From Lachnospiraceae bacterium (GTDB taxonomy: Bacteria; Bacillota; Clostridia; Lachnospirales; Lachnospiraceae), in NCBI GenBank assembly GCA_022791755.1, contig JAAVZR010000009.1, positions 1-64,000 of the forward strand: a stretch of DNA of 64,000 nt, given 5' to 3'. The notes under the pieces are model-generated. The model had not been told where the DNA came from, searched no databases, and was given only the letters and a program-made list of their open reading frames with translations. Shown here piece after piece: positions 4,639 through 32,163 of the stretch (position 1 is its first letter; each line of letters opens with the position of its first letter). A program made the translations under genes and the position numbers.

Positions 4639-6755
4639 TGGGAGCAGGAAGTAAGATCAGTGCGCTTATCAAAGTAGTTAAGACATGGGTGGCGGCTAAT
4701 AAAGCGGCTGCCGGAATCCTGGCCGGCGTGTTTGTGGCCGGCGGCGGTACGGCGGTGGCTCTGGGAGCCGGGGCATTCTCCCAGCCTGTGGCTGCCGAGA
4801 CGACACAGGCAGTGGTTCAGACAGTGCCCGAATCCACCCAGGCAGAGCTGTCTGGTGAAGATATTGAGGCGATCTATGTCCCTAACCTTCTGCGGGGTGA
4901 TCTGATCGGCGAACCTCTTCTCAATGAACTCTGGGAGTCCCTGGAAGCGGCCTACAATCCCAGGGTCGGTACGACGGCTGAGGAGACTACGACCGAGGAA
5001 GAGACCGAGACAACAAAGAAGGAGAAAGTGGAGATTCCGCCGGTGGTGGTGGCTCCTGTCAATGACAAGGAGGACGAGCAGCCTCAGGATGACGCCGATA
5101 AGGGAACCTCCGATGAGCTGGATATCAAGGATGTCATCGAACAGGAGAAGGAAAAGGAAGAAGAAGGAGAATATGAGAATATCAGCCGCTCCTATGGAAT
5201 CGACGTGTCCAAATGGCAGTATTCCATTGACTGGGCTCAGGTAGCGGCCAGCGGCGTGGAATTTGCCATGATCCGCGTGGGATACCGGGGCAACCAGACC
5301 GGAGAGATCGTGATGGATCCCTATTTTGAGCGTAATATCAAGGGAGCTCTGGCCAACCATATCAAGGTGGGTATTTATTTCTATTCTCAGGCCATTGATG
5401 AGGAGGAGGCCAAACAGGAGGCCGCCTGGGTGGTGAACGTCATCCAGAAATATCAGATTACATACCCGGTGGTGTATGACTGCGAGGGCCTGGGGCAGAA
5501 CCGGATCAAGGATGTGACGAAGACGCAGCGCAGCAAAAATGCGGCGGCTTTCCTGGATTATATCCGTGGAGCCGGCTATACGCCGATGATGTATGCCAGC
5601 AAATACGGATATAATAAGAACTGGGATATGAGCTACATTAAGAACTGCAAGATCTGGCTGGCCCACTATACATCCGGAGGCCTGAACACACCCAGCGATT
5701 ATTCGGGCACCTATCATATGTGGCAGTATACCAGTAAAGGCAGCGTACCCGGTATTCGGGGCAATGTGGATCTGAATGTGGCGTATTTCAGTTATTCCAA
5801 TACGCCGGACCCGGTGATCGGCACTGTGAATTATACGGTAGTGGACGATACTGGAGCGCCGGTGAAGGGCGCCACCGTTTCCATGAAAGGGGCGAACAGC
5901 CGCCGTATACTGACAGCAGAGACCGGGGATAACGGGATCGCCTCCTTTGCCAATGTGGTGGTGGATGACTATAATGTGGAAGTGACCGGAATTCCGGAGT
6001 ATTATAAGAAGGGTGCGCAGAGTACGGCACAGATCAGTTTCGGTAAGGCGGAGAACATCTTTGAAGGCCGTCTGAGCATCGACAGAATCATGAGCACCGG
6101 CGTCAGCTGCGAGGTAGTGGACATGAACGCCAAGGCAGTGGCCGGAGTGACCGTGACGCTGGCCGGGACCTCACGCCTGGGTACTGCCGTACAGATGAGC
6201 GCAGTCACCGATGCCGGCGGTAAGGCCGTGTTTGCCAATGTACCCCTGGGCTCTTATGAGACATACGTCTCGGCTGTGCCGGAAGGATACGAGATGCCTG
6301 CTGCGCCGGTGAAGGAGATCGTGGAAGTAACCTCCTCAGCCGCGGTGACAGTTAAGCAGAAGATGACGGTGAAAGCGGTGAAACCCTCGGAGAGTGAAAC
6401 GCCGGAGGAACCCTCCACGGATAATCCGGGTGAGACCACGAAACCGGATGAAACCACAAAGCCGGACGAGACCACAAAGCCGGACGAGACCACGAAACCG
6501 GATGAGACCACAAAGCCGGACGAGACGGCTACAGCTCCTGCGGAGACCACTACAGAACCTGTAGAGACGACGACTCCTGCGGAGACCACCACGGCGGCGC
6601 CTGCCACGACCACGGCGGCTCCTTCCTCTTCGCCCGCAGAGACCACGACGACAGCGGCAGCTGCCCCGGCGGAGAGTACGACACCGGGACCGGCGCCGGG
6701 GGAAGACGATCCGGCCTCCCGGTCAAATGAAGGCCTGACGGCAGAGGAGGGCTGA
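4638..6755 (+). CDS. Glycoside hydrolase family 25 (lysozyme-like) surface protein with carboxypeptidase-regulatory/prealbumin-like domains and a Thr/Pro-rich tail
   Basis: N-terminal TM segment; GH25 signature YGIDVSKWQYSIDWAQVAASGVEFAMIRVGYRG...WLAHYTSG...YHMWQYTS; beta-sandwich repeats (VSMKGANSRRILTAETGDNGIASFANV); PDETTK repeats. Confidence 0.9.
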   Translation: MGAGSKISALIKVVKTWVAANKAAAGILAGVFVAGGGTAVALGAGAFSQPVAAETTQAVVQTVPESTQAELSGEDIEAIYVPNLLRGDLIGEPLLNELWESLEAAYNPRVGTTAEETTTEEETETTKKEKVEIPPVVVAPVNDKEDEQPQDDADKGTSDELDIKDVIEQEKEKEEEGEYENISRSYGIDVSKWQYSIDWAQVAASGVEFAMIRVGYRGNQTGEIVMDPYFERNIKGALANHIKVGIYFYSQAIDEEEAKQEAAWVVNVIQKYQITYPVVYDCEGLGQNRIKDVTKTQRSKNAAAFLDYIRGAGYTPMMYASKYGYNKNWDMSYIKNCKIWLAHYTSGGLNTPSDYSGTYHMWQYTSKGSVPGIRGNVDLNVAYFSYSNTPDPVIGTVNYTVVDDTGAPVKGATVSMKGANSRRILTAETGDNGIASFANVVVDDYNVEVTGIPEYYKKGAQSTAQISFGKAENIFEGRLSIDRIMSTGVSCEVVDMNAKAVAGVTVTLAGTSRLGTAVQMSAVTDAGGKAVFANVPLGSYETYVSAVPEGYEMPAAPVKEIVEVTSSAAVTVKQKMTVKAVKPSESETPEEPSTDNPGETTKPDETTKPDETTKPDETTKPDETTKPDETATAPAETTTEPVETTTPAETTTAAPATTTAAPSSSPAETTTTAAAAPAESTTPGPAPGEDDPASRSNEGLTAEEG
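6427..6525 (+). repeat. In-frame (P-D-E-T-T-K) tandem repeat
   Basis: Repeated gagaccac[a/g]aa[a/g]ccgga[t/c] units encoding PGETTKPDETTKPDETTKPDETTKPDETTKPDET. Confidence 0.85.
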
Positions 6756-16684: not shown

Positions 16685-18088
16685 ATGAACGGATATGATG
16701 AGACCAATAATGTAAACGATTTTAACGATCAGAATGAACCGGGTTCCGGGGAGTATTATTCCTACAGGGAACCGGACCGGAACGGTTCCGGACCGTCCTC
16801 GCCGAAAAGAAGCGGCGTAGGCAAGGTGGTGGCCGTCACACTGGGAATGCTGCTGCTGGTGGGGATCGCTGCTGCCGGCGGATACAGCGCTCACACGCTG
16901 GTGGAACAGCTGAAGAACGGCTGGGAGTCAGTGGTGGGAAGCAGCGAGCCGGAGGAGACGAAGGCCTCGGCGGACAATGGAAGCCAGAAGGAGACAGAGA
17001 CCAGCCTTAAGGAGAGGGAGACAATTCCCCAGACTACGACGATGACAAACCAGCCGAACAGAGGAGCGGTGATTCTCACCGATGTGTCGGATATGGTGGC
17101 CTCGGTCATGCCTTCCGTGGTGTCTATCGTCAACAGCAGCGTATACACCAGCCAGAACTTCGGCGGTTTCTGGCAGGGAGCCACGGAGATTCCCACGGAG
17201 AGCAGCGGTTCCGGCATTATCATCGGACAGAATGAGTCAGAGCTTTTTATCGTGACCAATAACCACGTGGTGGAGAACAATAAGAGCCTCACCGTACAGT
17301 TTATGGACGGCTCTTCGGCGGAAGCGACGGTGAAGGCGTCCAAAGCCAGCTCGGATATCGCCATCATCTCCGTTCCTCTGGACAAACTTTCTCAGGAGAC
17401 AAAGGAATCCATCGCCATCGCCACGCTGGGTAACTCGGATGAGCTGCGTATCGGCCAGGGCGTGATCGCCATCGGAAATGCGCTGGGATATGGCCAGTCG
17501 GTGACGGAGGGCTGTGTCAGCGCACTGAATCGCAAGGTGACGACCAGCGAGGGTACGACGCTTAACGTGCTCCAGACTTCAGCGGCCATCAATCCCGGCA
17601 ACAGCGGCGGAGCCCTGTTAAACGCCTCCGGCGAGGTCATCGGTATCAATACGGCCAAGGTCATGGATACCAGAGTGGAGGGGATTAATTACGCGATCCC
17701 CATCTCTTCTGTGATTGATCTGATCAGCGATATGATGCAGTGGGAATCCCGCAATAAGGTAGACAGCGAGGATGCTTCCTATCTGGGAATCCAGCCGGTG
17801 TCCGTGGACGACGAGTCTTCAGAGAGCTATGATATGCCCCGCGGGGTCTACGTCTATTCGGTGACAGACAATTCTCCGGCAGAGCGGGCCGGGATGCGGG
17901 CAAAGGATATCATCACGGCGGTGGACCAGTATCCGGTGGGCAGCACGGCGGATTTGCAGAATGCATTGGAGTATTTCTCCGGTGGCGAGACGGTGACAAT
18001 CATCGTGCAGCGGCAGGTGGACGGCGCTTACCAGGAATTATCTCTGGATGTGACTCTTGCTTACAAGAGGGATTATACCACCAGGTAA
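16685..18088 (+). CDS. htrA: S1C trypsin-like serine protease with PDZ domain (HtrA/DegP family)
   Basis: TM anchor; catalytic motifs TNNHVVENN, SSDIAIISV, INPGNSGGALLN; C-terminal PDZ (GVYVYSVTDNSPAERAGMRAKDIITAVD). Confidence 0.93.
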   Translation: MNGYDETNNVNDFNDQNEPGSGEYYSYREPDRNGSGPSSPKRSGVGKVVAVTLGMLLLVGIAAAGGYSAHTLVEQLKNGWESVVGSSEPEETKASADNGSQKETETSLKERETIPQTTTMTNQPNRGAVILTDVSDMVASVMPSVVSIVNSSVYTSQNFGGFWQGATEIPTESSGSGIIIGQNESELFIVTNNHVVENNKSLTVQFMDGSSAEATVKASKASSDIAIISVPLDKLSQETKESIAIATLGNSDELRIGQGVIAIGNALGYGQSVTEGCVSALNRKVTTSEGTTLNVLQTSAAINPGNSGGALLNASGEVIGINTAKVMDTRVEGINYAIPISSVIDLISDMMQWESRNKVDSEDASYLGIQPVSVDDESSESYDMPRGVYVYSVTDNSPAERAGMRAKDIITAVDQYPVGSTADLQNALEYFSGGETVTIIVQRQVDGAYQELSLDVTLAYKRDYTTR

Positions 18089-18201: not shown

Positions 18202-18708
18202 TCAGTATCGTTCGGGAAGCTCTGTTATCTCAAGAAAGCTGCCGTAGCGCTCCGGCCAGGCGGCGGCCAGGTATTCTCCTGCGCTCTGTCTCTGTGCCAG
18301 CAGCCTTTGGAGCTGCCGGCGCTCTGTGCGCAGCCGGCGAATCTCCCGCTGGAATCTGGCCGGGCGGGAGGGATCTGTTTCGGGGACGGTCAGAAGGTCC
18401 CTCTCTGTCTCAGAGGAGACAGGGAGAGGCAGAGAAGCTTTGTCCGGGGAAAGGGAAGCGGCGGACGGCCCGTTCTCTCTTCTGTGAGCGGCTGTCTCGA
18501 CAGTCTGGACATCGCTCTTTTCAAAATCACAGTACCGGATATGGCGCAGGGCGTGTTCAAAACGCTCGCGCTGCGCATGGGGATCCAGGCGGGCGCTGAT
18601 AAAGACGGTATACGTTCCGTCCTCATTCTCTGTGACAGCCTCCGTTACCTTTCCGTTCAGATCAACGATCCGGACGAATATATCGCGTCCCTCAATCAAC
18701 GTCGCCAT
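18202..18708 (-). CDS. Hypothetical protein co-transcribed with the XRE repressor
   Basis: ORF 18202..18819(-); probable start ATG 18708 (MATLIEGRDIFVRIVDLNGKVTEAV) overlapping the 3' end of the repressor gene. Confidence 0.6.
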   Translation of the reverse strand: MATLIEGRDIFVRIVDLNGKVTEAVTENEDGTYTVFISARLDPHAQRERFEHALRHIRYCDFEKSDVQTVETAAHRRENGPSAASLSPDKASLPLPVSSETERDLLTVPETDPSRPARFQREIRRLRTERRQLQRLLAQRQSAGEYLAAAWPERYGSFLEITELPERY

Positions 18709-19093
18709 AACCCCGTTCCTTTCTTTTAAGGGCAAGAAGCATGGAATGTACCGTCTCCAGGTCCTCCGGCTGTGCGTCGCGGGCGGCGTCAAACAGGAGG
18801 CGGAGCTCTCTGTTTTCAAAGATCTGCTGAGCCATCTGGGCAGTCTCCTGGTTCAGATAGTAGTCTTCCTCGTCTTCCTTTTCTTCGATCAGATCAGAGC
18901 GCCTACAGTGAAACAGACCGCACATGGCGTCAATTTTATCCATCCGGGGACTCTTGATCCCATTACACCAGTTATATACGGATGTGGTTCCCACATTCAG
19001 ACGGCGGGCCAGCTCGGCCTGCGTGATCTCATACTTGGCCAGATAGTATCGCAGACGTTTGGAAAAAACCCTGTTGAATTCCTGTTCAGACAC
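18692..19093 (-). CDS. XRE/Cro-CI family helix-turn-helix repressor
   Basis: FSKRLRYYLAKYEITQAELARRLNVGTTSVYNWCNGIKSPRMDKIDAMCGLFHCRRSDLIEEKE; GTG start with aggagg RBS; divergent from the tail gene cluster. Confidence 0.9.
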   Translation of the reverse strand: MSEQEFNRVFSKRLRYYLAKYEITQAELARRLNVGTTSVYNWCNGIKSPRMDKIDAMCGLFHCRRSDLIEEKEDEEDYYLNQETAQMAQQIFENRELRLLFDAARDAQPEDLETVHSMLLALKRKERGYGDVD

Positions 19094-19125: not shown

Positions 19126-19136
19126 CACTAAAAGTG
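19126..19136. promoter_or_regulatory. Operator copy 1, CACTAAAAGTG
   Basis: Imperfect palindromic 11-mer near the repressor promoter. Confidence 0.6.
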
Positions 19137-19166
19137 ATAATAATTCAATAAAAATAAAAAAAATAT

Positions 19167-19206
19167 CACCTAAAGTGTTGACACACACTTAAAGTGATGG
19201 TATACT
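19167..19206 (+). promoter_or_regulatory. Sigma-A-like promoter with two operators (CACCTAAAGTG 19167-19177; CACTTAAAGTG 19186-19196)
   Basis: TTGACA (19178-19183), 17-nt spacer, TATACT (19201-19206). One operator abuts the -35 and one lies in the spacer. Confidence 0.8.
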
Positions 19207-19329
19207 GATCTCAGCTTCCTAAGAAGGAGCAATAAAAAGCCCAGGTTTGCCCGGTGATATGCGGTTTTCTCCCTTCCAGCAGAGAAAAAGGGATGCTGCA
19301 CGGAAAAAGGAATCGTTGTCAATATTTTT

Positions 19330-19360
19330 TTGCAGATAGAATCCACTTAAAGTGATATAC
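19330..19360 (+). promoter_or_regulatory. Second putative promoter with operator copy 4 (CACTTAAAGTG 19344-19354)
   Basis: TTGCAG (19330-19335), 17-nt spacer, TGATAT; the operator overlaps the spacer/-10. Confidence 0.55.
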
Positions 19361-19513: not shown

Positions 19514-19858
19514 ATGACATTGGCAGAGTTTCAGCAGATTTTGCTGCGGGTGACAGCCGGAGTATATCACTTTGAGGCCGGGGAGGACGCGGGAGAGAAA
19601 TACATCGTCTGGCAGGAAACAGGAGGCCGTGCACTCTACGGGAACAACCGGTGCACGGAGAGAACCCGGCAGATCCGGGTGGTCCTGCATACGCGGGAAA
19701 AAGAATCTTTTCTGCCTGACCGTCTTCTCTGTGAGTTGGACAGGGCCGGGGCAGCGTTTGAGGAACCGGTGACCGAGTACGACCCGGAGACAAAATGGAT
19801 CCGGCACACGGTGATGTGCGAGGTGCCGTACAGCCTGACGACGGCCGTGGAGGGGTGA
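19514..19858 (+). CDS. Phage tail terminator / minor capsid-like protein
   Basis: 114-aa protein immediately upstream of the major tail protein; position and size fit a tail-terminator/head-tail joining protein; family not firmly recognised. Confidence 0.55.
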   Translation: MTLAEFQQILLRVTAGVYHFEAGEDAGEKYIVWQETGGRALYGNNRCTERTRQIRVVLHTREKESFLPDRLLCELDRAGAAFEEPVTEYDPETKWIRHTVMCEVPYSLTTAVEG

Positions 19859-19937: not shown

Positions 19938-20510
19938 ATGGCAACATTTGGAGCGAAATATATTGTATTTGCACCCTTTGCGGAGGAGCCGAAGGATACC
20001 CTTCCCAGCTATAAGGCGGCAGTGGAGGTGGGCCAGCTGGTGAAAGCGGACCTGACGGTCAATCTGACGGCCGGGGAGCTGTGGGCCAATAACGCGCTGG
20101 CGGAGAAGATCGAGGAGTTTGCCAGCGGCACCCTGGCGGTGGAAGTGGACGATATGACCCATGAGACAGAAAGCGCTCTGTTCGGATCTACCCTGAAGGA
20201 GAAGGAGCTGATCGACAGTACCGGCGATACGATTCCTTATGGGGGCCTGGGATATTATAAGACCCTGTCCCGGGGCGGTAAGAAGTATTATGAAGCCTGT
20301 TTTTATCCGAAGACGAAGGCGGTGATGGGGAACGATACGGCGCAGTCCAAGGCCAGCAGCATCACATTTACGGCCAGGCCGCTGTCCTTTACGATCTATG
20401 AGCCGCAGACAGGCGAATGGAGATACCGTGAGGTCTTTGACAGCGAGGAGGCTGCGGTGGCGTATATCGACGGCAAGCTGAAGACCGTGACCGGCGAGGA
20501 CGTGCAGTAA
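19938..20510 (+). CDS. Phage major tail (tube) protein, phi13-type
   Basis: MATFGAKYIVFAPF...LVKADLTVNLTAGELWANNALAEKIEEFASGTLAVEVDDM...GLGYYKTLSRGGKKYYEACFYPKTKA; typical TP901/phi13 major tail protein. Confidence 0.85.
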   Translation: MATFGAKYIVFAPFAEEPKDTLPSYKAAVEVGQLVKADLTVNLTAGELWANNALAEKIEEFASGTLAVEVDDMTHETESALFGSTLKEKELIDSTGDTIPYGGLGYYKTLSRGGKKYYEACFYPKTKAVMGNDTAQSKASSITFTARPLSFTIYEPQTGEWRYREVFDSEEAAVAYIDGKLKTVTGEDVQ

Positions 20511-20522
20511 TATAGGAGAGCC

Positions 20523-20619
20523 GGAGGCTGCCACAGGAGGGCTTGGAGCGCAGGATATGAGATTTTGCGGGAAACAAATTTTCATATCCTGCGCAGGGGT
20601 TCAAAATGTGGCAGCCTCC
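20523..20619. repeat. Nested double inverted repeat (outer arms 20523-20535/20607-20619; inner arms 20548-20560/20582-20594)
   Basis: Outer ggaggctgccaca / tgtggcagcctcc; inner gcgcaggatatga / tcatatcctgcgc; both perfect 13-bp arms. Confidence 0.85.
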
Positions 20620-20649: not shown

Positions 20650-21084
20650 GTGCAGACAGAGAGGAGGAGACAGCTGATGCTGGCAAAAACAGAGAAATGC
20701 GTACTGGCGGGGAAGGAGATTCATCTGGCTTACACAGTGAACGCCATGTTTGAGATCAATGATCTGCTGGGAGAGAGGGAACTATTTGAGGTGCTGGGGA
20801 CCAACGACAGGGAAAATTTTTCCGCCTTCTGTGAGATCATAAGGATTCTGGCGGTAAACGGAGCGCTGTGCCGGCAGGCCCAGGGCTACGGACAGGGAGA
20901 TGCGCTTCCGGAGAACGGACAGTGGGAGGCCAGCCTGACGCCGCGGGAGTATATCGACGCGAAAAACAGCGCTCTCCATGCGGTGCTGAAGGGGCTGGGA
21001 AGAGAGACTGCCGAGGAGGAGGAGGTCGACCTGGGACTTCTGGAGCTGGAAAAAAACGCAAGCCGGCCAGAGCGGATATCCTGA
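20650..21084 (+). CDS. Tail assembly chaperone, 0-frame product (gpG-like)
   Basis: 144-aa ORF between tail tube and tape measure genes, the canonical position of G/GT chaperones. A second start (MLAKTEKCVLAG) is possible at 20677. Confidence 0.75.
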   Translation: MQTERRRQLMLAKTEKCVLAGKEIHLAYTVNAMFEINDLLGERELFEVLGTNDRENFSAFCEIIRILAVNGALCRQAQGYGQGDALPENGQWEASLTPREYIDAKNSALHAVLKGLGRETAEEEEVDLGLLELEKNASRPERIS

Positions 21085-21206
21085 CAATGGCAGCTCTGGC
21101 CGGTTTCAGTATAAGCGAGGCGCTGATGACGGCTCCGGGCCTGATCCGCGATATGTACGGCGTGTATCTGAAACGAAACGGATATGGGAAGGGGCTGCCC
21201 CAGTGA
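20650..21206 (+). CDS. Tail assembly chaperone, predicted -1 frameshift fusion (gpGT-like)
   Basis: Slippery A AAA AAC at 21051-21057. The -1 frame continues RKPARADILTMAALAGFSISEALMTAPGLIRDMYGVYLKRNGYGKGLPQ to 21206. Downstream 11-bp stem 21063-21073/21093-21103. Confidence 0.75.
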
Positions 21207-21260: not shown

Positions 21261-24200
21261 ATGGGTAGTAAAAGAATGGATATGAGTGATGTGGCGGGAA
21301 TGGCAAAGAGCCGGGACGGGAAGCAGGAAGCAGCGCAGACCCAGGAGGAAAAGAAGGCCGGCGGACAGGACGCGCTGGGAGCGCTGGCAAAGGCGTTAAA
21401 GGATTCCGGGATCAAGGGGGCGCTGGAGGATATCGATCAGCTGTTGCAGGATTGTTCTTCTTCAGCGGCAGCTTTTGAGACCAGCATGGCAGGGTTGAAA
21501 ATCATGGCGGATACCTCGGTCGTGCCGGTGGATACCATGAAAAATGAGATACTGTCTCTGTCGTCGGAACTGGGTATAGGGGCGGGAAAGGTGGCGGAGT
21601 CCGTGTCCGCTGCGATCCGGGCCGGTGTGGATACAGCCTCCTCGGTGGGATTTGTGGAGACAGCGTCTAAGCTGGCGGCTGGCGGCTTTACGGATACTGC
21701 CACTTCGGTGAAGGTTCTGGCGGCGGCCATGAATGGCTACAAGCTGGAAGCGAATGAGGTGGAGCAGGTATCGGACTATCTGATTACCACGCAGAGGCTG
21801 GGCAAGACCACGGTGGGAGAGCTGGCATCCGCGATGGAGAAGGTGATTCCGGTGGCTGCCGCCAGTCACGTGGAGATGGACAATCTGTCCGCCGCTTACG
21901 CGGTCCTGACGAAAGACAGCCACACAGCAGGCGAGGCCGGCGCTTACCTAAAGGCGATTCTGGGCGAACTGGGGGACAGCTCCAGCCTGGTGGCCGGGAT
22001 ACTGCGCAGCGAGACGGGGATGTCTTTCGAAGAACTGTCGGAGTCCGGCAGCTCCCTGGGAGATATTATGGCGCTCCTGGGAGAGAGCGTGGGAGGCAAT
22101 ACGGAGGTCTTCCGAAAGCTGTGGGAGAGCTCGGAGGCCGGCGTCGGAGCCCTGTCTTTACTGGAAACGGGATCGGAGGAGTATGCAAGCGTACTGGTGC
22201 AGATGCGCCAGAGCGCCGGCGCGGCGGAGGAAGCTTTCGCACTCATGGCAGATACCACCCAGGGCGCCCATGACCGGATGGATGTGGCGGTGGAGAACAT
22301 GAAGACTGCCCTGGGCGATGCGCTGAATCCGGCGCTGGAGAAGCTCTATGAGACCGGGGCGGATGCCTTTGGCTGGGCTGCGGATTTCGTATCGGAACAT
22401 CCGGAGGTGGTACAGGCGATCATGGCGATTACCACCGTGGCTGGCGCCCTGACGGCAGGTCTGACTGTCCTGCATGGAGCCCTGACGATGATAGAGGTCG
22501 TTCAGAAGATGATAGCGTCACATCCGACGGCTATGATTGTAACGGCCGTGGTAGCAGCCGTGGCAGCGCTGGGGACCTACGTGGCGACATTGGAGCTGAC
22601 GGGAGAAGGAGAAGGAAGCCTGAGGCAGCGGACCAATGAACTTAGGGACAGCGTGGAAGAGCTGAATGAGGCCATTAAAGGGAATCAGGAGGCCTATGAG
22701 CAAAAGCAGGAGGCCATGCGGGAGCAGGCGGAAGCCACGCAAGCCATGATTGAGCAGCTGGAAACTCTGATGGAGGCGGAGGGAAACAGTCAGGCAAACA
22801 GAGAATCTATCAAAAGCTTGGTGGAAGAATTAAATGAAATGGTGCCGGAGCTGGCACTGGCCTATGATGAGGAAACAGATTCTTTAAATAAAACTGCTGA
22901 GGCTATCCGGACCACCGTGGAGGCTCAGGCGGAGTTATCCGAGTATGACGCAGCCATTGAGCGTCGTTCAGAGCTTCTGGCGGAGAATCGTGCAAAGTCG
23001 GAGGAACTGGCGGCGGTGCAGGGGCTTCTGGCGGAGTCGGAAGCGTATCTGGAGGAAGTCCAGCGACAGTATAACAACAATACCTATGAAGGAGCATATA
23101 TCATCGCAGAAGCGCAGGCTCAGACAGAGAATCTGCGAGTGACAATGGAAGCTACGAAACAGGCGCTGCGGGATAATGTGGAAGAATATTATGCTGTCGG
23201 CGTTCAGATCAATGAGTATACGGCGGCCAATGCGGATCTGCTGCCAAGCTCCAGAGCCGTAGTGGACAGTATGCTGGAGCAGGCGGAGGCATTGCAGGAA
23301 GACGAAAAAGCCTATCAGCAGATGGTGGAGCAGATCGCGGAGGCAGCGTTGGCCCATGAAGAATTCGCTGAGGGATATCGCTGCAATATAGAGAGCATAG
23401 AAGAGGGTTTGCACTCCTTATGGGAATCTTACTACGAAAGCGCGGCAGCGGCCTATGACAGTATCTCCAGTCAGGTCGGTCTTTTTGAGAATATGAAGAT
23501 CGAGTCGAAACAGAGCATCGAGGGCCTGATAGGAAATCTGCAAAGTCAGACAGAATATATGAATACCTATGCGGAGAATATCGATAAGGCCATGGAACTG
23601 GGGGTGGATCGGGCGATTCTCGAGAGACTGTCGGACGGATCAAAGGAATCGGCCGGATATCTGGCAGCCATTGCGGCCTCCGGTAAGGAAGAGGTCGATC
23701 AGTTGAATGCGGAATTTGCCAAGGTAGAAGTGGGAAAAAATAAATTTTCCGACGCTGTGGGGCGAATGGCCACGGATTTTGATAAGGAAATGGAGAAGAT
23801 GGAGACCTCCTATGACAAAATGGTGACGGAAATGGACCAGTTTGATAAAGCCTTTGCCGCATCGCTAAATACCTGCAAAGGGGTGGAAGAGGCGATTCAA
23901 TCGGAGCAGGAAGATATCGTTTCCAAAAACAGAGAACTAAAGGAGGCGATGGTAGCGGAGCTGGACGATTACGGAGCAGCCCATGTGGCGGCGGAGCATA
24001 CCTGCGAGGGCGTAAAGAGCGGCGTGGATGCCATGTGGGATTCCGTGGTGGAGAAACACCGGGCTCTGGCGCGGGCTGCCTGGGAAGCCTACAATCAGGA
24101 AATCGACATCCACTCCCCTTCAAGAAAATTCAAATGGTCTGCCGAGATGACCATGGAGGGCCTGGAGGCCGGTGTGCAGGAGGGGAGCCCGGCCGTCATG

Positions 24201-24521
24201 AAAGCCTACCGGGAGACAGCCAGAGAGGCCTGGGCCGCCTATGAGGAGGGAAGCCGGAGTCTGACCGGACAGACCTGGCAGGGACAGGCGATGATGATGG
24301 CCTTCACATCCGGTCTGCCGGACCCTGCGACGGCGGAGGCATCCATACGGGATTATGACAGGCGGCTTCTGGTCCGGATGATGGGCGTCGGGCAGGACAG
24401 AGAAGAGAGGGGCGTCAGAGAGATCAATCAGACCGTGAATATTTACAGACCGGTGGAATCGCCGGCGGAACTGGCCAGAGAGATGAGAAAGGCGGGAAGG
24501 GAGATGTGGCTGGATGGATAA
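21261..24521 (+). CDS. Phage tail tape measure protein (TP901 family)
   Basis: 1086 aa; N-terminal TP901-like region (SSELGIGAGKVAESVSAAIRAGVDTASSVGFVETASKLAAGGFTDTATSVKVLAAAMNGY), hydrophobic segment, long coiled coil, C-terminal WEAYNQEIDIHSPSRKFKWSAEM. Confidence 0.93.
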   Translation: MGSKRMDMSDVAGMAKSRDGKQEAAQTQEEKKAGGQDALGALAKALKDSGIKGALEDIDQLLQDCSSSAAAFETSMAGLKIMADTSVVPVDTMKNEILSLSSELGIGAGKVAESVSAAIRAGVDTASSVGFVETASKLAAGGFTDTATSVKVLAAAMNGYKLEANEVEQVSDYLITTQRLGKTTVGELASAMEKVIPVAAASHVEMDNLSAAYAVLTKDSHTAGEAGAYLKAILGELGDSSSLVAGILRSETGMSFEELSESGSSLGDIMALLGESVGGNTEVFRKLWESSEAGVGALSLLETGSEEYASVLVQMRQSAGAAEEAFALMADTTQGAHDRMDVAVENMKTALGDALNPALEKLYETGADAFGWAADFVSEHPEVVQAIMAITTVAGALTAGLTVLHGALTMIEVVQKMIASHPTAMIVTAVVAAVAALGTYVATLELTGEGEGSLRQRTNELRDSVEELNEAIKGNQEAYEQKQEAMREQAEATQAMIEQLETLMEAEGNSQANRESIKSLVEELNEMVPELALAYDEETDSLNKTAEAIRTTVEAQAELSEYDAAIERRSELLAENRAKSEELAAVQGLLAESEAYLEEVQRQYNNNTYEGAYIIAEAQAQTENLRVTMEATKQALRDNVEEYYAVGVQINEYTAANADLLPSSRAVVDSMLEQAEALQEDEKAYQQMVEQIAEAALAHEEFAEGYRCNIESIEEGLHSLWESYYESAAAAYDSISSQVGLFENMKIESKQSIEGLIGNLQSQTEYMNTYAENIDKAMELGVDRAILERLSDGSKESAGYLAAIAASGKEEVDQLNAEFAKVEVGKNKFSDAVGRMATDFDKEMEKMETSYDKMVTEMDQFDKAFAASLNTCKGVEEAIQSEQEDIVSKNRELKEAMVAELDDYGAAHVAAEHTCEGVKSGVDAMWDSVVEKHRALARAAWEAYNQEIDIHSPSRKFKWSAEMTMEGLEAGVQEGSPAVMKAYRETAREAWAAYEEGSRSLTGQTWQGQAMMMAFTSGLPDPATAEASIRDYDRRLLVRMMGVGQDREERGVREINQTVNIYRPVESPAELAREMRKAGREMWLDG

Positions 24522-25362
24522 CGAGGTGGTATTTACCTTTTACAGAGACAGCGAAGAGCTGACGGTGGGGGCCAACGCGTTTGGCATTATCAAATACAGC
24601 GGGCTGGAGGCGACAGACTATGCTCTGGAAACTATGCCAAACGGAAACGGGATCGGCGCGAGTCTGACAAAACGCAGGCTGCTGCCCAGGGATCTGTCGC
24701 TGGAATTTGAATATAAGATCCGGCGGCAGGATTCCGGGATCCGGCAGCGGCTGATCGGTTTTTTCAGCCCGTTTTCCTGCGGATGTCTTAACGTGCGATA
24801 TAAAGGGGTGGTCCGGGAAATCGAATATGAGGTGGAGAAGATGAGGCTTCCCACGGTCAATGTGAACGAACGTCTTCGCTGCTGCCTGGATCTTCAGTGT
24901 ATGAATCCGTTCTTTACAGGCGTACAGAAGCGCCGCGTGACACTGGCGACCTGGGTCGACGGCTGGAGGTGGAAATTCACACTGCCCTTTCATATGAAGC
25001 GGAGGGGCTCCTTCCGGCGCAATGTATATAACGCGGGCCATTCGGACACGCCGGTCCACATCATCTTTAAAGGGCCTGCGGTCAATCCTGCGGTGAAAAA
25101 CCTGACCACAGGGGAGATGATCCGGATTCGGAAGGAACTGACGACAGACGATGTGCTCTACATCTGTACGGAGTTCGGCGCTAAGACCGTGAGAATCGAC
25201 CACAGTGACGGACAGCAGGAGGATGCGTTTGACTATATTGATCTGAACAGCCGTTTCTGGTGGCTTCAGACAGGCGACAATATGGTGGAGTATGAGACAG
25301 ACAATGATCTGGAACCTCAGTCGGTTACCATCGAGTACGATGAGAGATATCTGGGAGTATAA
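24514..25362 (+). CDS. Distal tail protein (Dit-like)
   Basis: 282-aa protein directly after the tape measure gene; LSLEFEYKIRRQDSGIRQRLIGFFSPFSCGCLNVRYKG...; fits siphovirus Dit organisation. Confidence 0.75.
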   Translation: MDNEVVFTFYRDSEELTVGANAFGIIKYSGLEATDYALETMPNGNGIGASLTKRRLLPRDLSLEFEYKIRRQDSGIRQRLIGFFSPFSCGCLNVRYKGVVREIEYEVEKMRLPTVNVNERLRCCLDLQCMNPFFTGVQKRRVTLATWVDGWRWKFTLPFHMKRRGSFRRNVYNAGHSDTPVHIIFKGPAVNPAVKNLTTGEMIRIRKELTTDDVLYICTEFGAKTVRIDHSDGQQEDAFDYIDLNSRFWWLQTGDNMVEYETDNDLEPQSVTIEYDERYLGV

Positions 25363-25397: not shown

Positions 25398-26015
25398 ATG
25401 GAGAACAGCGGTTTTTTTAACGGAGATGAAGAATACGGACAGGACGAGTTTAACCGGTATTTCCGGAACCTGTTTCAAAACGGAGTGAGTCTGGACGATG
25501 GGGGAGCTCTGACTCTGAAGGTGACAGCGGGAGAGAACGGTGTGACCCTGTCGAAGGGCTTCGCTATCGTGGAGGGATTTTTTTATTACAATGACGCGGA
25601 TAAGGCGGTGGCGCTTCAGAGAGATCCGTATCTGCCCCGGGTGGACCGGGTAGTGCTCAGGCTGGATCTGGCGGCGCACACGGTGCGATGCAAAATTCTG
25701 GAGGGGACAGCTTCCAGTACGCCGGCAGCACCTGTGCTGACCAGAGACGAACTGGTGTACGAGATATCGCTGGCGTCTGTGTATATCCCGGCGGAGGGAG
25801 ACATGGTGGTGACGGATGAGCGGGCGGATACGAAGCTGTGCGGAGCCATACGCCCGAAAAATCTGACGGAGTATCAGGATATGGTGACAGAATTTCAGCG
25901 CCGGTATGAAGCATGGTTTGTCATGCAGCAGTCCGTGGGATGGCGGAAGACGTACATCCAGTCCCTGGAACCGGAGGAGCATGTGGAGGGAAGCATATGG
26001 CTGAGAATCCGATAG
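25398..26015 (+). CDS. Phage tail/baseplate structural protein
   Basis: MENSGFFNGDEEYGQDEFNRYFRNLFQNGVSLDDGGALTLKVTAGENGVTLSKGFAIVEGFFYYND...; between Dit-like and Gp37-like genes. Confidence 0.6.
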   Translation: MENSGFFNGDEEYGQDEFNRYFRNLFQNGVSLDDGGALTLKVTAGENGVTLSKGFAIVEGFFYYNDADKAVALQRDPYLPRVDRVVLRLDLAAHTVRCKILEGTASSTPAAPVLTRDELVYEISLASVYIPAEGDMVVTDERADTKLCGAIRPKNLTEYQDMVTEFQRRYEAWFVMQQSVGWRKTYIQSLEPEEHVEGSIWLRIR

Positions 26016-27076
26016 AGATATGGTTTTTTGATCCTTCGCTCACCTTTATCGGTCTGGAGGATCACTATGAAGCCATCCGTTACCGGCAGCGGTGGAACAC
26101 ATACGGCGACTTTGAGATCTGCCTGTGCCGGATGATACCCCAGGCAAAGCTGGGAAATATCGTAGTCTTTGGTCACAACGGCAGAAAAAACGGGGTGATC
26201 CGGTATATCCGGATGGAAGAGGACGGAAAGGTGCGGATCAGGGGCTACAGTCTGCTGTGGCTTCTGACCCAGAGGATCACGATACCTCCAGCCGGGGAGG
26301 ACTGCCTTACAGTCAGCGATACTCAGGAAAATGTCATGAGAACTCTGGTGGACCAAAACGCCATCCATCCCGAGAATGTGTCCCGGATCATCCCCCACCT
26401 GTCTCTGGGAAAGAGGGCGCAGGCAGGGCGGATGATAACCTTTCAGAGCCGCTACGCCGGACTGGACAGAGAGATCGGCAGTCTGTCGGAATCTTCCGGC
26501 CTGGGAGTATCCATAGACTTTGACTATCAGAGGCAGGAATGTCTGTTTTGCGTCAGGCAGGGGACAGACCGGTCCTGTGAACAGGAAAAACGGTCTCCGG
26601 TGATCTTCTGTATGGACTACGATACGATCGAGAGCCGTACCTATGAGATCAGCGATATGGACGCGAAGACCTGTGCCGTCATAGCCGGAAAGGGCGAGGG
26701 AGCGGACCGGGCCGTGTATGTGTACGGCGACGAACTGGCGATGAATGAGAGGCGGGAGATATTTATCGACGCAAAGGATATAAAGGACCCTCTGCTTTTA
26801 CCGGAACGGGCGGCCACGAAGCTGGCGGAGTGGAAACCGGCGGAGGCCTATGAGTGTATCCTGTCTCTGGAAGGCTACGCAAAGAAATGGGATATCGGAG
26901 ATTATGTGACGGTGCTGGATCCCGAGCTTGGTATCAGGAAGCGGATGCAGATCACGGCGGTGGAGGAGTCTGTGGACCGCAACGGAGGATATGAGGTGGA
27001 GGCAACCGCAGGAGAGGCGGCCAAAAGCGTGGCGGAGCACCTGCGGAACAGGACGGCGGCAGGGAGCGCCGAGTGA
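25997..27076 (+). CDS. Siphovirus ReqiPepy6 Gp37-like / tail-associated protein
   Basis: Likely ATG at 25997 (MAENPIEIWFFDPSLTFIGLEDHYEAIRYRQRWNTYGDFEICL...); typical Gp37-like N-terminus. Confidence 0.75.
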   Translation: MAENPIEIWFFDPSLTFIGLEDHYEAIRYRQRWNTYGDFEICLCRMIPQAKLGNIVVFGHNGRKNGVIRYIRMEEDGKVRIRGYSLLWLLTQRITIPPAGEDCLTVSDTQENVMRTLVDQNAIHPENVSRIIPHLSLGKRAQAGRMITFQSRYAGLDREIGSLSESSGLGVSIDFDYQRQECLFCVRQGTDRSCEQEKRSPVIFCMDYDTIESRTYEISDMDAKTCAVIAGKGEGADRAVYVYGDELAMNERREIFIDAKDIKDPLLLPERAATKLAEWKPAEAYECILSLEGYAKKWDIGDYVTVLDPELGIRKRMQITAVEESVDRNGGYEVEATAGEAAKSVAEHLRNRTAAGSAE

Positions 27077-27132: not shown

Positions 27133-27354
27133 ATGGGAGAGATTAAGAAAGCAGATTACCTGGTGGACAATGGGACGGATTACGATAAGATACATTTCTC
27201 CACCGGGGCGGATCAGGTAGAGTATGTAAAAAGCGGCGGTCAGACGACCAGTATCCAGGAGGCCCTGGGGGGCTACAGCCTGCGAATCGTGGATGTGAGG
27301 CCGGATGTGCAGGAACCGGGAGTGATCTATTTTATCAGAAAGGCGGAAGGCTGA
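27133..27354 (+). CDS. Small phage tail-region protein
   Basis: 73-aa ORF with RBS (aaggagaatgag), overlapping the next start. Confidence 0.5.
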   Translation: MGEIKKADYLVDNGTDYDKIHFSTGADQVEYVKSGGQTTSIQEALGGYSLRIVDVRPDVQEPGVIYFIRKAEG

Positions 27355-29198
27355 TGACAGGATTGATATGCGATGACCTGGAGTGTATCATGGCGGAGGA
27401 ACGGCTCATATCGGAGGCGTGGAGCGGAGGAAGACAGCTGTATCAGTACGACAGCACCGCTCCGTCTCTGACGGTCGCGGCCCCGGCCGGTACGGCTGAG
27501 AATGCTCCCTCATACTGGACCTCCGGCGCTGCCTATCGGGTACAGGGCAGCGTAACCGATGCGGACAGCGGTGCGGCGGCAGTGTATGTGAATGGGAAGG
27601 AGGCGGTGGTAAGCGGCAGCAGCTGGTACGGAGATATCACGCTGACGGCGGATACGACGGTGGCAGTACAGGTATATGCGGTGGACAAGGCGGGAAACCG
27701 GACGGGGACGATTACCCGATATGTCCGTTACGACAGTATGGCTCCTGCGGTGTCTCTTACGGCCCCAGCGGCAGACTCGTATATATCGGGAACCAGCGTC
27801 ACCGTCACAGGTACGGCGTCCGATGCCGGAGGGATCCGGTCTCTGACGGTGAACGGGACCGCTGTGGCTGTGGCGGCAAACGGCGCTTTCAGCATATCGG
27901 TGGCTCTGACGGCCAATGTCTGGAATACGGTCACGGTGGCGGCCACGGACTATGCCGGACGCAGTACCACGGTCGCCAGAAGGATATACAGCGATACGGT
28001 GAACCCGGCGGTGTCCTTTACGGCTCCTGCGGCAGATTCCTATACCTCTGCCGCCTCGGTGACGGCCTCCGGCACGGCCACGGACGCTGCGGGAATCCGG
28101 AGTGTGACGGTAAACGGGACGGCAGTGACCGTGGCAGCCAACGGCGCGTGGAGCAGATCGGTCTCTCTGACGGCCAATGCCTGGAATACGATCACGGTGA
28201 CAGCCACGGACAGAACCGGGAGGACGACTACCGTCACCAGGAGGGTGTACTGCGACATGACGAATCCAACCCTGGCAGTGAGCGCGCCTGCCGGCACGTC
28301 GGCCGGCGCTCCCACGTACTATCAGAGCGATGCCGCGGTCAGCTATACGGTGAGCGGCACGGCGTCCGATGCCACGGGGATCCGGAGCGTGACCGTAAAC
28401 GGAGCGGCGGCCTCGGTGAGCGGATCAAGCTGGAGTAAGGCCCTGTCTCTGGCGACGAATACGACGCATACGATTACAGTGGTGGCGACGGACGGAGCAG
28501 GCAGGACCAGCACGGTGGTACGGTATCTGCGGGTGGAGGCGTGGTATCAGTATGCGGCCAGAGTGGCTGGGACGACAGTGCAGGCCAGTCTGGACGCAAC
28601 ACTTAAAAATAGCGCAGTATGTAATGCCATTGCTGGTTATGCGACGGCATATGATATAATGAAAAGCCACTATTCTTCCAGCATGGCATCCTATATTGGA
28701 AGCTATTACTCCGCCGGTCTTAACCTCTTAAATTATCGCTGCCACTTAAAAACGTATTTGTTTAAGGATGGTGCAGATACAGGAGCTGTTTCCTACTCTA
28801 TTTCTACCATTGGTTCTGAAAACGGCAACTGGGTTGCTCGCAGGGAAAACAACGCATATTTATATGTTTATGTATCGGCAGGTATGTACTTAAAAATGGC
28901 ATACATAAACTTTATTGGATGGAATCGGATCGGCATACGGGCCAAGAGAAAACAATATGATTATGACAGCATTGCCGGGTTTATGGGTTTGAGTACCGAT
29001 ACAATATGCGATTTTAATAGTGACAACACTACATTTAAAGTTGCCAGGGTTACTTTTGATGCGTATAGGGATCCTGAATGGACTTATCTGGGCCTCTCTG
29101 CCTATCAAGGCTCTTATTATTTAAAGTTTGGATCGGTTTTGGGCTTTGGAGCCAACCAGCCAAGAGATTGCTATATCTATGATGTGATCATAGAATAA
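27354..29198 (+). CDS. Tail fibre/adhesin-like protein with tandem Ig-like repeats and a variable C-terminal domain
   Basis: Ig-like units (SVTVNGTAVTVAANGAWSRSVSLTANAWNTITVTATDRTGRTTTVTRRVY) between tail and lysis genes; the C-terminal ~215 aa differ in composition and lie in AT-richer DNA. Confidence 0.8.
   Translation: MTGLICDDLECIMAEERLISEAWSGGRQLYQYDSTAPSLTVAAPAGTAENAPSYWTSGAAYRVQGSVTDADSGAAAVYVNGKEAVVSGSSWYGDITLTADTTVAVQVYAVDKAGNRTGTITRYVRYDSMAPAVSLTAPAADSYISGTSVTVTGTASDAGGIRSLTVNGTAVAVAANGAFSISVALTANVWNTVTVAATDYAGRSTTVARRIYSDTVNPAVSFTAPAADSYTSAASVTASGTATDAAGIRSVTVNGTAVTVAANGAWSRSVSLTANAWNTITVTATDRTGRTTTVTRRVYCDMTNPTLAVSAPAGTSAGAPTYYQSDAAVSYTVSGTASDATGIRSVTVNGAAASVSGSSWSKALSLATNTTHTITVVATDGAGRTSTVVRYLRVEAWYQYAARVAGTTVQASLDATLKNSAVCNAIAGYATAYDIMKSHYSSSMASYIGSYYSAGLNLLNYRCHLKTYLFKDGADTGAVSYSISTIGSENGNWVARRENNAYLYVYVSAGMYLKMAYINFIGWNRIGIRAKRKQYDYDSIAGFMGLSTDTICDFNSDNTTFKVARVTFDAYRDPEWTYLGLSAYQGSYYLKFGSVLGFGANQPRDCYIYDVIIE
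27460..28540 (+). repeat. Four tandem Ig-like domain-encoding units (~260-nt period)
   Basis: Repeated starts near 27460, 27742, 28006 and 28267, with similar nucleotide text (ccggcggtgtcctttacggctcctgcggcagattcctat / cctgcggtgtctcttacggccccagcggcagactcgtat). Confidence 0.8.
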
Positions 29199-29450
29199 CT
29201 ACTGCAAATATATCTTCGTAATGTTATAGGCATTGCCGCCCCTCCAGTCGTTTACCCTGACATACGCATCGCTGGTAAGCGATGCGGTAGTTGCTGGTCT
29301 TGGAAGTGTGGGCTTTCGACGTTTCTGTCGGGGGACTACGCTGCCCTGGTTGAGGGGCAGCGGCTCCGAGACGTGCAGGCTGGCGCGCAGTTGCTCCACC
29401 TCATCGTCGGTAAGCGGGTGCTTCTTCCGGGTGTCCTTGCGACGTCGCAA
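29199..29450 (-). CDS. Antisense fragment resembling a tail-fibre C-terminus
   Basis: Convergent with the fibre gene; ends ...TASLTSDAYVRVNDWRGGNAYNITKIYLQ, reminiscent of fibre/receptor-binding C-termini. TTG start within a perfect palindrome. Confidence 0.35.
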   Translation of the reverse strand: MRRRKDTRKKHPLTDDEVEQLRASLHVSEPLPLNQGSVVPRQKRRKPTLPRPATTASLTSDAYVRVNDWRGGNAYNITKIYLQ

Positions 29451-29583
29451 GAGAAAAGGAGAAGAATAGGATCTTTACCAGAGCGGGCCCAGAAAGGTCT
29501 TTTAGTGTGCCAAAAATATAAATCGATTTGGCTATGGGTACAAATAACCGAACTGTGAGAAAATAAATAGGAGTCAGGATGAT

Positions 29584-29844
29584 ATGTATGAAGCACTTAT
29601 TACAGGATCTGTAGCTATTTTAGTTTGCATGATTAATAATCTTTTTCAGAAACATGTAGTCAGAAAGCAAAATGATAAAACGATTTCGCTGGTTGCGTAT
29701 CGTATAGAACAACTTGAAAATAAAGTACAGGCTCATAACAATCTCATAGAAAGAATATATCGTTTAGAAGAGCGAACCGAAATTCAAGAAGAGAAAATTA
29801 AATCGGCAAATCATAGAATCGCAAATTTGGAGAAAGGGGATTGA
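29584..29844 (+). CDS. XhlA/holin-associated small protein
   Basis: N-terminal TM segment (ITGSVAILVCMINNLF) then coiled coil (LEERTEIQEEKIKSANHRIANLEKG); immediately before the holin. Confidence 0.55.
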   Translation: MYEALITGSVAILVCMINNLFQKHVVRKQNDKTISLVAYRIEQLENKVQAHNNLIERIYRLEERTEIQEEKIKSANHRIANLEKGD

Positions 29845-29846
29845 GA

Positions 29847-30074
29847 ATGAACGAAAGATATTGGACTATTTGGGTTAAGGCAGCGGGAGTAAGGGCAGTA
29901 AAAACGATAGCCCAGACAGCTGTTGCCACAATAGGTACAGCTGGCATACTGAGTGTGGTAGATGTACGGACCGTATTGTCTGCATCCATATTATCCGGTA
30001 TTTTGTCTTTGCTTACATCGCTGGCAGGGCTGCCGGAGGTAAAAATAAAATCAGGAGGCGGATATGAAGGGTAA
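29847..30074 (+). CDS. Phage holin
   Basis: MNERYWTIWVKAAGVRAVKTIAQTAVATIGTAGILSVVDVRTVLSASILSGILSLLTSLAGLPEV; small hydrophobic r1t-type holin overlapping the amidase gene. Confidence 0.85.
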   Translation: MNERYWTIWVKAAGVRAVKTIAQTAVATIGTAGILSVVDVRTVLSASILSGILSLLTSLAGLPEVKIKSGGGYEG

Positions 30075-30963
30075 GATGAAAATCGCAATGGACGCCGGTC
30101 ATGGCCTGCACACAGCCGGCCGGCGCTGCCTTCCCTCTCTGGATCCGGCCCAGACCAGGGAATGGAAGCTGAATTCGCGGATTATGGACAGGCTCCAGGA
30201 AGCCTTGCAGGGATACGACTGTGAGGTTCTGCGGGTCGATGATATTACCGGAGTCCGGGATGTGGGCCTTAGTGACAGAGTGACTGCGGCTAACGATTTC
30301 GGCGCGGATCTGTACCTGAGCATGCATCACAATGCCGGTGTCGGGGGAAAAAGCGGCGGGGGAACCGTGGTCTATCACGCCAGCGATATTCCTGCCCATG
30401 TCTCCCTGGCACAGAGGCTGTACCAGCATATCGTGGCAGAGACGGGACTTATGGGCAATCGCAGCAGCAAGGTGGTAAAGAAAGCATATTATGTTCTGGC
30501 TAACACGAACATGCCAAGTTATCTGGTGGAGAACGGTTTTATGGACAGTCTGGCAGATACGCCTGTCATTATCACGGAAGCTCACGCACAAAAGACAGTT
30601 CGTGGTATCATAACCTGGCTGGAACAGGATTGCGGTCTGAGGCATCTGGCTGAGAGCGAGGATTCCGGGCAGCAGGAAACGCCCTCGAAAGAAGAGTCGC
30701 CGGATGGCGGCGAAGGTACGGATCCGACGGATTTATCCCCGGGAGCAGCGGTCATTGTCAACGGAATCATCTATGGTACAGGCAGCGGCAAGGGCTGCGG
30801 AATCGCGAAAAACCATGACCGGATGTATATCACCGGTTACGCCGGAGAACGTTATCCCTATTGCTGGGGAGTGGCAAAGACAGCAGGCGGAATCCGACAG
30901 GGATGGGCCCGGGCAGAGGATCTGAAGCTTGCGACGGAGTCGGCCGGGATGAGGAGACTATAA
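30064..30963 (+). CDS. N-acetylmuramoyl-L-alanine amidase (Amidase_3) endolysin, 0-frame part
   Basis: MKIAMDAGHGLHTAGRR...LSMHHNAGVGGKSGGGTVVYH...YLVENGFMDSLADTPVI; C-terminal SH3-like region ...YCWGVAKTAGGIRQGWARAEDLKLA. Confidence 0.92.
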   Translation: MKGKMKIAMDAGHGLHTAGRRCLPSLDPAQTREWKLNSRIMDRLQEALQGYDCEVLRVDDITGVRDVGLSDRVTAANDFGADLYLSMHHNAGVGGKSGGGTVVYHASDIPAHVSLAQRLYQHIVAETGLMGNRSSKVVKKAYYVLANTNMPSYLVENGFMDSLADTPVIITEAHAQKTVRGIITWLEQDCGLRHLAESEDSGQQETPSKEESPDGGEGTDPTDLSPGAAVIVNGIIYGTGSGKGCGIAKNHDRMYITGYAGERYPYCWGVAKTAGGIRQGWARAEDLKLATESAGMRRL

Positions 30964-31190
30964 AGGATTATCCGGAATGGGCGGCGATCTGTAACGAGAG
31001 GAACGTTAATGTGCGTATCGGTCCGGGGACGGAAAATGCTGTTTTGACAGCCTGGCCGAAGCTGGGACCCGGCAATGAGGTGGATGTGACCGGTGAGAAG
31101 AGGGCGCCGAATGGTAAGCTGTGGTACCGGATACGGATTGCCGGGATCCATACCGGTTGGGTGTATGGAGGATTTCTGGACAGGAGATGA
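30861..31190 (+). CDS. Bacterial SH3 domain fragment in the -1 frame of the endolysin
   Basis: CNERNVNVRIGPGTENAVLTAWPKLGPGNEVDVTGEKRAPNGKLWYRIRIAGIHTGWVYGGFLDRR is a typical SH3b domain. No convincing independent start upstream of it. Confidence 0.7.
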   Translation: MLGSGKDSRRNPTGMGPGRGSEACDGVGRDEETIKDYPEWAAICNERNVNVRIGPGTENAVLTAWPKLGPGNEVDVTGEKRAPNGKLWYRIRIAGIHTGWVYGGFLDRR

Positions 31191-31620: not shown

Positions 31621-32163
31621 TTGTATTATGTAATTCAGGTGGCACCAGGAATGGAAGAGCGGACGGAAACTTGGATTCGAAACAAAGTAAAGCATGACGT
31701 ATATGATTGTTGTTTTCACCCGGTACGCCACAGGAGGAAAAAGTTTCATGGGGAATGGAAGGATCTGTATGAAAAGCTTCTGCCGGGGTATGTGTTTATT
31801 GTAAGCGATTTGATTCACGAATTATATCAGGAATTGGGACAAGTTCCTGCATTTACTAAAATACTGGGTAAAGAGGGAGATTATTTTACATCTCTTCATG
31901 AAAATGAGGTGGACTGGCTGGGAAGGATTATGGTTCCGGGCCTGTCTGACGAGGGGTATGCTGAAATAGGATTATCAAAGATAATTGTAACAAAGCAGAA
32001 TACGATAGAGATTTTATCGGGGCCTCTGCAAAATCTCAAAGACAGGATACGGAAGATCAATCTGCACAAACGGATCGCAGAGGTGGAAGTAGACTTTATG
32101 GGAAGGAAAAAGATAGTCTATTTGGGAATTGAGTTGGTTAAGACGGGGGAAGACCTTGAATAG
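31621..32163 (+). CDS. loaP: LoaP-like NusG-family antiterminator
   Basis: MYYVIQVAPGMEERTETWIRNKV...FHGEWKDLYEKLLPGYVFIVSDLIHELYQELGQVPAFTKILG: NusG-NGN-like domain plus KOW-like C-terminus; TTG start with aggagg RBS; first gene of the polysaccharide operon. Confidence 0.85.
   Translation: MYYVIQVAPGMEERTETWIRNKVKHDVYDCCFHPVRHRRKKFHGEWKDLYEKLLPGYVFIVSDLIHELYQELGQVPAFTKILGKEGDYFTSLHENEVDWLGRIMVPGLSDEGYAEIGLSKIIVTKQNTIEILSGPLQNLKDRIRKINLHKRIAEVEVDFMGRKKIVYLGIELVKTGEDLE

Follow-up and report, generated by a model that had tools for sequence, protein, structure and literature searches.

A predicted programmed -1 frameshift in the tail assembly chaperone gene of a headless phage-tail cassette, a probable F-type tailocin of a Lachnospiraceae bacterium

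Organization of the tail and lysis cassette

The window analysed here, a 64,000-nucleotide stretch of a contig from a Lachnospiraceae bacterium, carries between 19.5 and 31.2 kb a cassette of tail and lysis genes headed by a divergent regulatory region (Table 1). The gene situated between those of Dit and Tal represents families (phrog_9534 and phrog_5339) that are filed by PHROGs under head and packaging; it occupies the same place in tailed relatives. The GC content falls over the final third of the fibre gene and the adjoining downstream gap (28600-29560), as in exchanged receptor-binding tips. Just past the stop codon of the amidase gene, at 30954-31190, an SH3b cell-wall-binding domain is encoded in the -1 frame. 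The endolysin may have been truncated, which would amount to damage, or this domain may be made separately. A search for relatives of the endolysin in viral contigs revealed none.

The repressor and ImmA-like genes diverge from the tail genes, with the operator-like palindromes and the promoter in between. Three of the four palindromes are found in near-identical register upstream of homologous repressor genes of three prophages (L094, L095, and L106) and of L107, which is also a headless cassette. Copies of the repressor that are 70-76% identical occur in prophages as well as in a further headless cassette; its use as a tailocin marker was abandoned, as ordinary prophages carry it too and it is thus not diagnostic. 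Active metalloproteases of this kind have the motif HEXXH. The ImmA-like protein has HALRH at the HEXXH-like position, and the loss is shared by its counterparts in L016 and L106, while that of L107 keeps HELRH.

The hairpin in the gap between the tube and chaperone genes is nearly perfect and about 97 nt long. It is present in a single copy in the genome, and the possibility that it is a repeat element was rejected. Shorter strong hairpins are located at the equivalent place in L024, L025, L028, L006, L007, L016, and L043. Perhaps the hairpin acts as an attenuator or forms an mRNA 3' end, setting the level of tube protein over that of the chaperone. A search of Rfam with the 18-32 kb region of the window gave no match.

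Table 1. Features of the cassette and of its regulatory region (window coordinates; a dot denotes no strand)
Feature	Coordinates	Strand	Basis or remarks
ImmA/IrrE-like accessory protein	18202..18708	-	weak Peptidase_M78; homologs adjoin repressor in other loci
Cro/C1-type repressor	18692..19093	-	HTH_26 E=5e-10
Four operator-like palindromes, CACTTAAAGTG	19126..19354 (at 19126, 19167, 19186, 19344)	.	three recur beside homologous repressors in other loci
Sigma70-like promoter, TTGACA-17-TATACT	19178..19206	+	11/12 matches; overlaps an operator
Tail terminator protein	19514..19858	+	homolog of annotated Castelnaud tail terminator and of the gene in other loci
Tail tube (major tail) protein	19938..20510	+	phrog_88 E=1.3e-16
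Long intergenic RNA hairpin, tube-chaperone gap	20523..20619	+	-65 kcal/mol, z=-7.6; single copy in genome
Tail assembly chaperone G, predicted 0-frame product, 135 aa	20677..21084	+	weak phrog_2115; AF2 fold
Slippery heptamer A AAA AAC	21051..21057	+	direct reading, all frames, homolog comparison
Candidate stimulatory stem-loop, 11 bp + 19-nt loop	21063..21103	+	fold; 2 two-sided pair changes among 5 relatives
-1 frame T extension, 49 codons	21057..21206	+	predicted GT product 176 aa
Tape measure protein	21261..24521	+	PhageMin_Tail E=1.7e-28, phrog_28775 E=4e-60
Distal tail protein Dit	24514..25362	+	SPP1_Dit E=7e-15
Virion structural protein, phrog_9534/phrog_5339 kind	25398..26015	+	E=6e-39
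Tail-associated protein Tal (Sipho_Gp37)	25913..27076	+	PF14594 E=1e-58
Small protein	27133..27354	+	no match in Pfam or PHROGs
Fibre / receptor-binding candidate, Ig-like repeats	27354..29198	+	Glucodextran_B, Big_7 repeats
XhlA-like small membrane protein	29584..29844	+	phrog_1863 E=3e-11; XhlA E=2e-5 (below Pfam cut-off)
r1t-type holin	29841..30074	+	PF16945 E=2e-10
Endolysin, N-acetylmuramoyl-L-alanine amidase	30064..30963	+	Amidase_3 E=8e-26

A headless cassette on a chromosomal island

While the preliminary description of this DNA referred to the tail chaperones of siphophages, the cassette proved to be devoid of head and packaging genes and to be flanked by host genes. Genes of portal, terminase, protease, capsid, and connectors were found neither in the window nor in the rest of the contig by tblastn with the head proteins of three related phages, a search that does detect head genes in most relatives. 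No HK97-type capsid gene was found in the host genome, where the matches to phrog_2 are weak and located elsewhere; this genome is a draft, 88% complete, which leaves some room for a helper phage in it. The cassette also contains no integrase or early genes. With capsid, portal, and terminase genes lacking, it does not appear to represent a siphophage or an intact prophage. What precedes the tail genes is the host HtrA gene (16685-18088) rather than genes of capsid, portal, or terminase. In all six sister species searched HtrA is directly followed by the ClpX-like gene that lies at 44785-46347 in the window, with nothing recognisable of the 18.1-44.8 kb region in between. This empty junction indicates that the cassette belongs to an inserted island that spans about 26.7 kb. 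Besides the cassette, the island (18089-44784) comprises a NusG/LoaP-like gene (31621-32163) and a low-GC (35-40%) polysaccharide cluster; a tailocin and the surface glycan could conceivably be connected through self-immunity.

Two other headless cassettes of the same tail family were identified. One, L016, comes from a mouse-gut Lachnospiraceae and has genes of leuD, threonine synthase, and aldo-keto reductase upstream, as well as repressor and ImmA-like homologs (52%). The other, L006/L014, comes from Hominifimenecus microfluidus, with a YibE/F-like gene upstream and genes of an NlpC/P60 lysin and an ABC transporter downstream. Between the chaperone and tape measure genes of L006 (12570-13650) there are two similar minus-strand ORFs and a repeated start of the tape measure gene, as from a tandem duplication. 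In the tree based on tube and chaperone proteins every headless locus (n=3) is sister to a head-bearing phage, namely, the window to L024 (support 91/91), L016 to L013 (100/99), and L006 to L007 of the same genome (100/99). The AU test rejects a topology in which the headless loci form one clade (p far below 0.001). Thus, there have been three or more events of head loss or tail-module capture. A headless cassette of a second kind, L107 (G255:C112), which is flanked by electron-transfer flavoprotein genes, encodes a repressor 70% identical to that of the window and has the same operators, but its Gp15-type chaperone pair belongs to a different tail lineage. Module capture is plausible, since this cassette shares the repressor but differs in the tail.

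The absence of head and packaging genes and the flanking host genes make it likelier that any function of the cassette is that of a phage-tail-like bacteriocin. Its genes comprise those expected of an F-type tailocin, namely, a full non-contractile tail set and dedicated lysis genes, with no head or packaging genes. We put at roughly 75% the probability that the cassette is an F-type tailocin in which the chaperone is produced by standard G/GT frameshifting. Tails made from it would stay headless, since under a prophage-type repressor it encodes a full set of siphophage-type tail proteins together with a holin and an endolysin, but no means of making or filling a head. The particles would be freed by lysis and could then kill related strains. 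It is less likely, by a wide margin, that the same frameshift operates in, or is left over from, a decaying prophage remnant which is not a working tailocin. Decay would be in line with the displaced SH3b frame and with the lack of integrase and early genes, and the cassette is missing from all six sister species searched, so that its open frames could merely reflect a recent arrival. On the other hand, every tail gene from the terminator to Tal is open, the lysis and repressor genes are kept, and what is missing is exactly the set of head, packaging, replication, and integration genes. The existence of the two headless cassettes of the same tail family, and of one with another tail lineage, also argues against decay.

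The frameshift site and its conservation

The preliminary description had the chaperone reading frame begin at GTG 20650. Its frame and stop are retained here, but ATG 20677 is a more likely start, since it is preceded by a strong ribosome-binding site (GGAGGA) and aligns with the starts of homologs. The product matches phrog_2115 ('tail protein') weakly (E = 0.0014); this family is matched by 16 of 31 homologs, and Phage_TAC_11 by one. An AF2 model of the chaperone, obtained with an input of 31 sequences (pLDDT 83), had no match in the PDB, while its best matches among viral models are in some cases named tail assembly chaperone and in others tail tube protein.

Direct reading of the window shows seven A at 21050-21056 followed by C at 21057. 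Since the 0-frame codons here are GAA AAA AAC, the heptamer A AAA AAC is in register; it lies close to where the G gene ends. It is followed by a 5-nt spacer, GCAAG (21058-21062), and by a perfect 11-bp stem, in which CCGGCCAGAGC (21063-21073) pairs with GCTCTGGCCGG (21093-21103) across a loop of 19 nt. The 0 frame ends with TGA at 21082-21084. Reading of all frames indicates that the -1 frame is open for 49 codons from 21057, up to a stop codon at 21204-21206. All these elements had been located correctly, to the base, in the preliminary description. The heptamer alone is of little value as proof, since heptamers in register are not rare: there are 79 of the X XXY YYZ type in the 19,344 codons of the called window genes, 15 of them being AAAAAAN. 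The hairpin is more unusual, as perfect 11-bp hairpins with loops of 3-30 nt occur at only four separate places in the 64 kb, and the local RNA fold at the slip site has a z of -3.1.

The chaperone is rare, with homologs in three of the 396 genomes sampled from the family, the genome of the window included. While a scan of viral contigs with a peptide pattern derived from the window chaperone as a single protein gave no homolog, alignment-based scans succeeded and provided 11 genomic loci and 39 from viral contigs. Together with Flavonifractor phage Castelnaud, a Hominifimenecus prophage, and the window itself they make 53 rows, some of which share a contig. An automatic rule, which asked for an in-register heptamer close to the 0-frame stop together with a -1 extension of 40 codons or more, was passed by 50 rows. 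A slippery run in register and a homologous T extension of about 43-55 codons in the -1 frame are present in 51 of the 53 loci. These include L062, which has both the run and the extension but was missed by the rule due to a later 0-frame stop; L040 is cut by the contig end. The sole homolog in which the T extension lies outside the -1 frame is L050, with eight A instead of nine (5640-5660), which may be a homopolymer or sequencing error or may reflect a different shift. Conservation of the heptamer in homologs, proposed earlier as a check of the frameshift, is therefore borne out. Additionally, when a profile was built from 33 distinct T extensions, with that of the window left out, the window -1 extension was the best of 1731 window frames (E = 8e-13, next best 0.62).

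The pattern of stem conservation is different. A strong stem immediately downstream of the slip site was found only in the window and in four of its close phage relatives (L024, L025, L027, and L028, with L026 repeating L025), with z of -2.7 to -5.1. In these five sequences 94.5% of cells pair in the helix, as compared to 29-55% with the helix slid. Two neighbouring stem pairs differ on both sides (C-G to G-C and A-U to G-C) and one pair on one side; the count of two-sided pairs was not unusual in a letter-shuffle control (241/500). Both double changes split the same two groups and may represent one event each, on one branch. Covariation that comes from five sequences and probably from one or two events lends the stem moderate support. 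Other homologs mostly have runs of nine A and no significant stem; the stem is a feature of this clade and not a requirement of the family. Consequently, the earlier statement that all three elements are intact is valid for the window, and conservation of the stem for it and four close relatives, but neither extends to most homologs, which have longer A runs and no stem. The idea that loss of the stem goes with longer A runs was dropped: it fits one event in the window clade, but runs of 7-8 A without a stem occur elsewhere in the family. A further contig with a heptamer and a stem, L132, came from a DNA-pattern scan and was discarded as unrelated in sequence. A second alignment scan for close relatives yielded zero further stem-bearing sequences.

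The position of the gene between those of tube and tape measure, the predicted fold, and the fact that both the slippery run and the -1 frame protein are conserved concur with the initial identification of a G/GT tail chaperone and make a programmed -1 frameshift in this gene highly probable. Ribosomes starting at ATG 20677 would occasionally slip back by one base on A AAA AAC, aided by the downstream stem-loop, and would thus synthesize a major product G of 135 aa and a minor product GT of 176 aa. By analogy with phage lambda, G would coat the tape measure protein, while GT would recruit tail tube subunits through its T part. Production of GT by transcriptional slippage on the A run, instead of ribosomal frameshifting, is plausible in the many homologs that have nine A and no significant stem. 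In the window it seems improbable, as the run comprises only seven A and a paired stem is preserved in the clade at a spacing of 5 nt, a feature that would be of no help to polymerase slippage. Even less credible is the synthesis of T alone by re-initiation at ATG 21087, just past the 0-frame stop: the arrangement TGA CA ATG (21082-21089) would permit it, but several homologs (L012, L018, and L041) have no such Met, while the slippery run in register is nearly universal. The site being an A run, an assembly or homopolymer sequencing error might in principle create two frames, but the chance of this is negligible, as dozens of independent contigs show the two frames arranged in the same way.

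Significance and comparison with known systems

The predicted frameshift is of a textbook kind. Its context is less so, as F-type tailocins of gut clostridia have been little described; our search of the open-access literature found none described for Lachnospiraceae, which is not proof of their absence. That a headless cassette has kept its frameshift site and stem suggests selection on tail assembly, either at present or in the recent past. Tentatively, and with the odds somewhat against it, we propose that a siphophage tail family of Lachnospiraceae gave rise to F-type tailocins on three or more separate occasions, through head loss or tail-module capture. The G/GT frameshift would have been kept each time, in the window on an island that also carries a surface-polysaccharide locus, a possible source of self-immunity. 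If headless derivatives have indeed arisen from one tail family repeatedly and independently, the birth of tailocins would become testable in abundant gut bacteria.

The -1 frameshift of tail assembly genes is conserved, and lambda gpG/gpGT is among its examples (Xu, Hendrix and Duda 2004, reviewed in PMC5009743). As in lambda, the gene analysed here lies between those of tube and tape measure, carries a slippery heptamer towards the 3' end of G, and is followed by a short -1 frame T extension that stops just ahead of the tape measure gene. In contrast, its protein family is far from lambda G, the heptamer, A AAA AAC, is followed by a stem confined to one clade, and no head genes accompany the gene. 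Flavonifractor phage Castelnaud (ON453903) encodes a homologous chaperone that is 37% identical, with a run of nine A and a homologous -1 extension, although it is annotated solely as a 0-frame 'tail protein'. Unlike the window cassette, Castelnaud is a complete phage with terminase, portal, and capsid, and it has no comparable stem.

The Listeria monocin is an F-type tailocin composed of a regulatory module, a capsid-free tail module, and a lysis module (PMC6872733). The window cassette differs from it in tail lineage, in host, and in having HALRH in place of HEXXH. Both have a repressor with a metalloprotease-like protein, a siphophage-type tail without a capsid, a holin with an endolysin, and no excision or replication genes. 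While membership of the chaperone in the lambda-type G/GT group appears well supported by sequence comparison, it is by this shared anatomy only that the cassette would be grouped with monocin-type tailocins.
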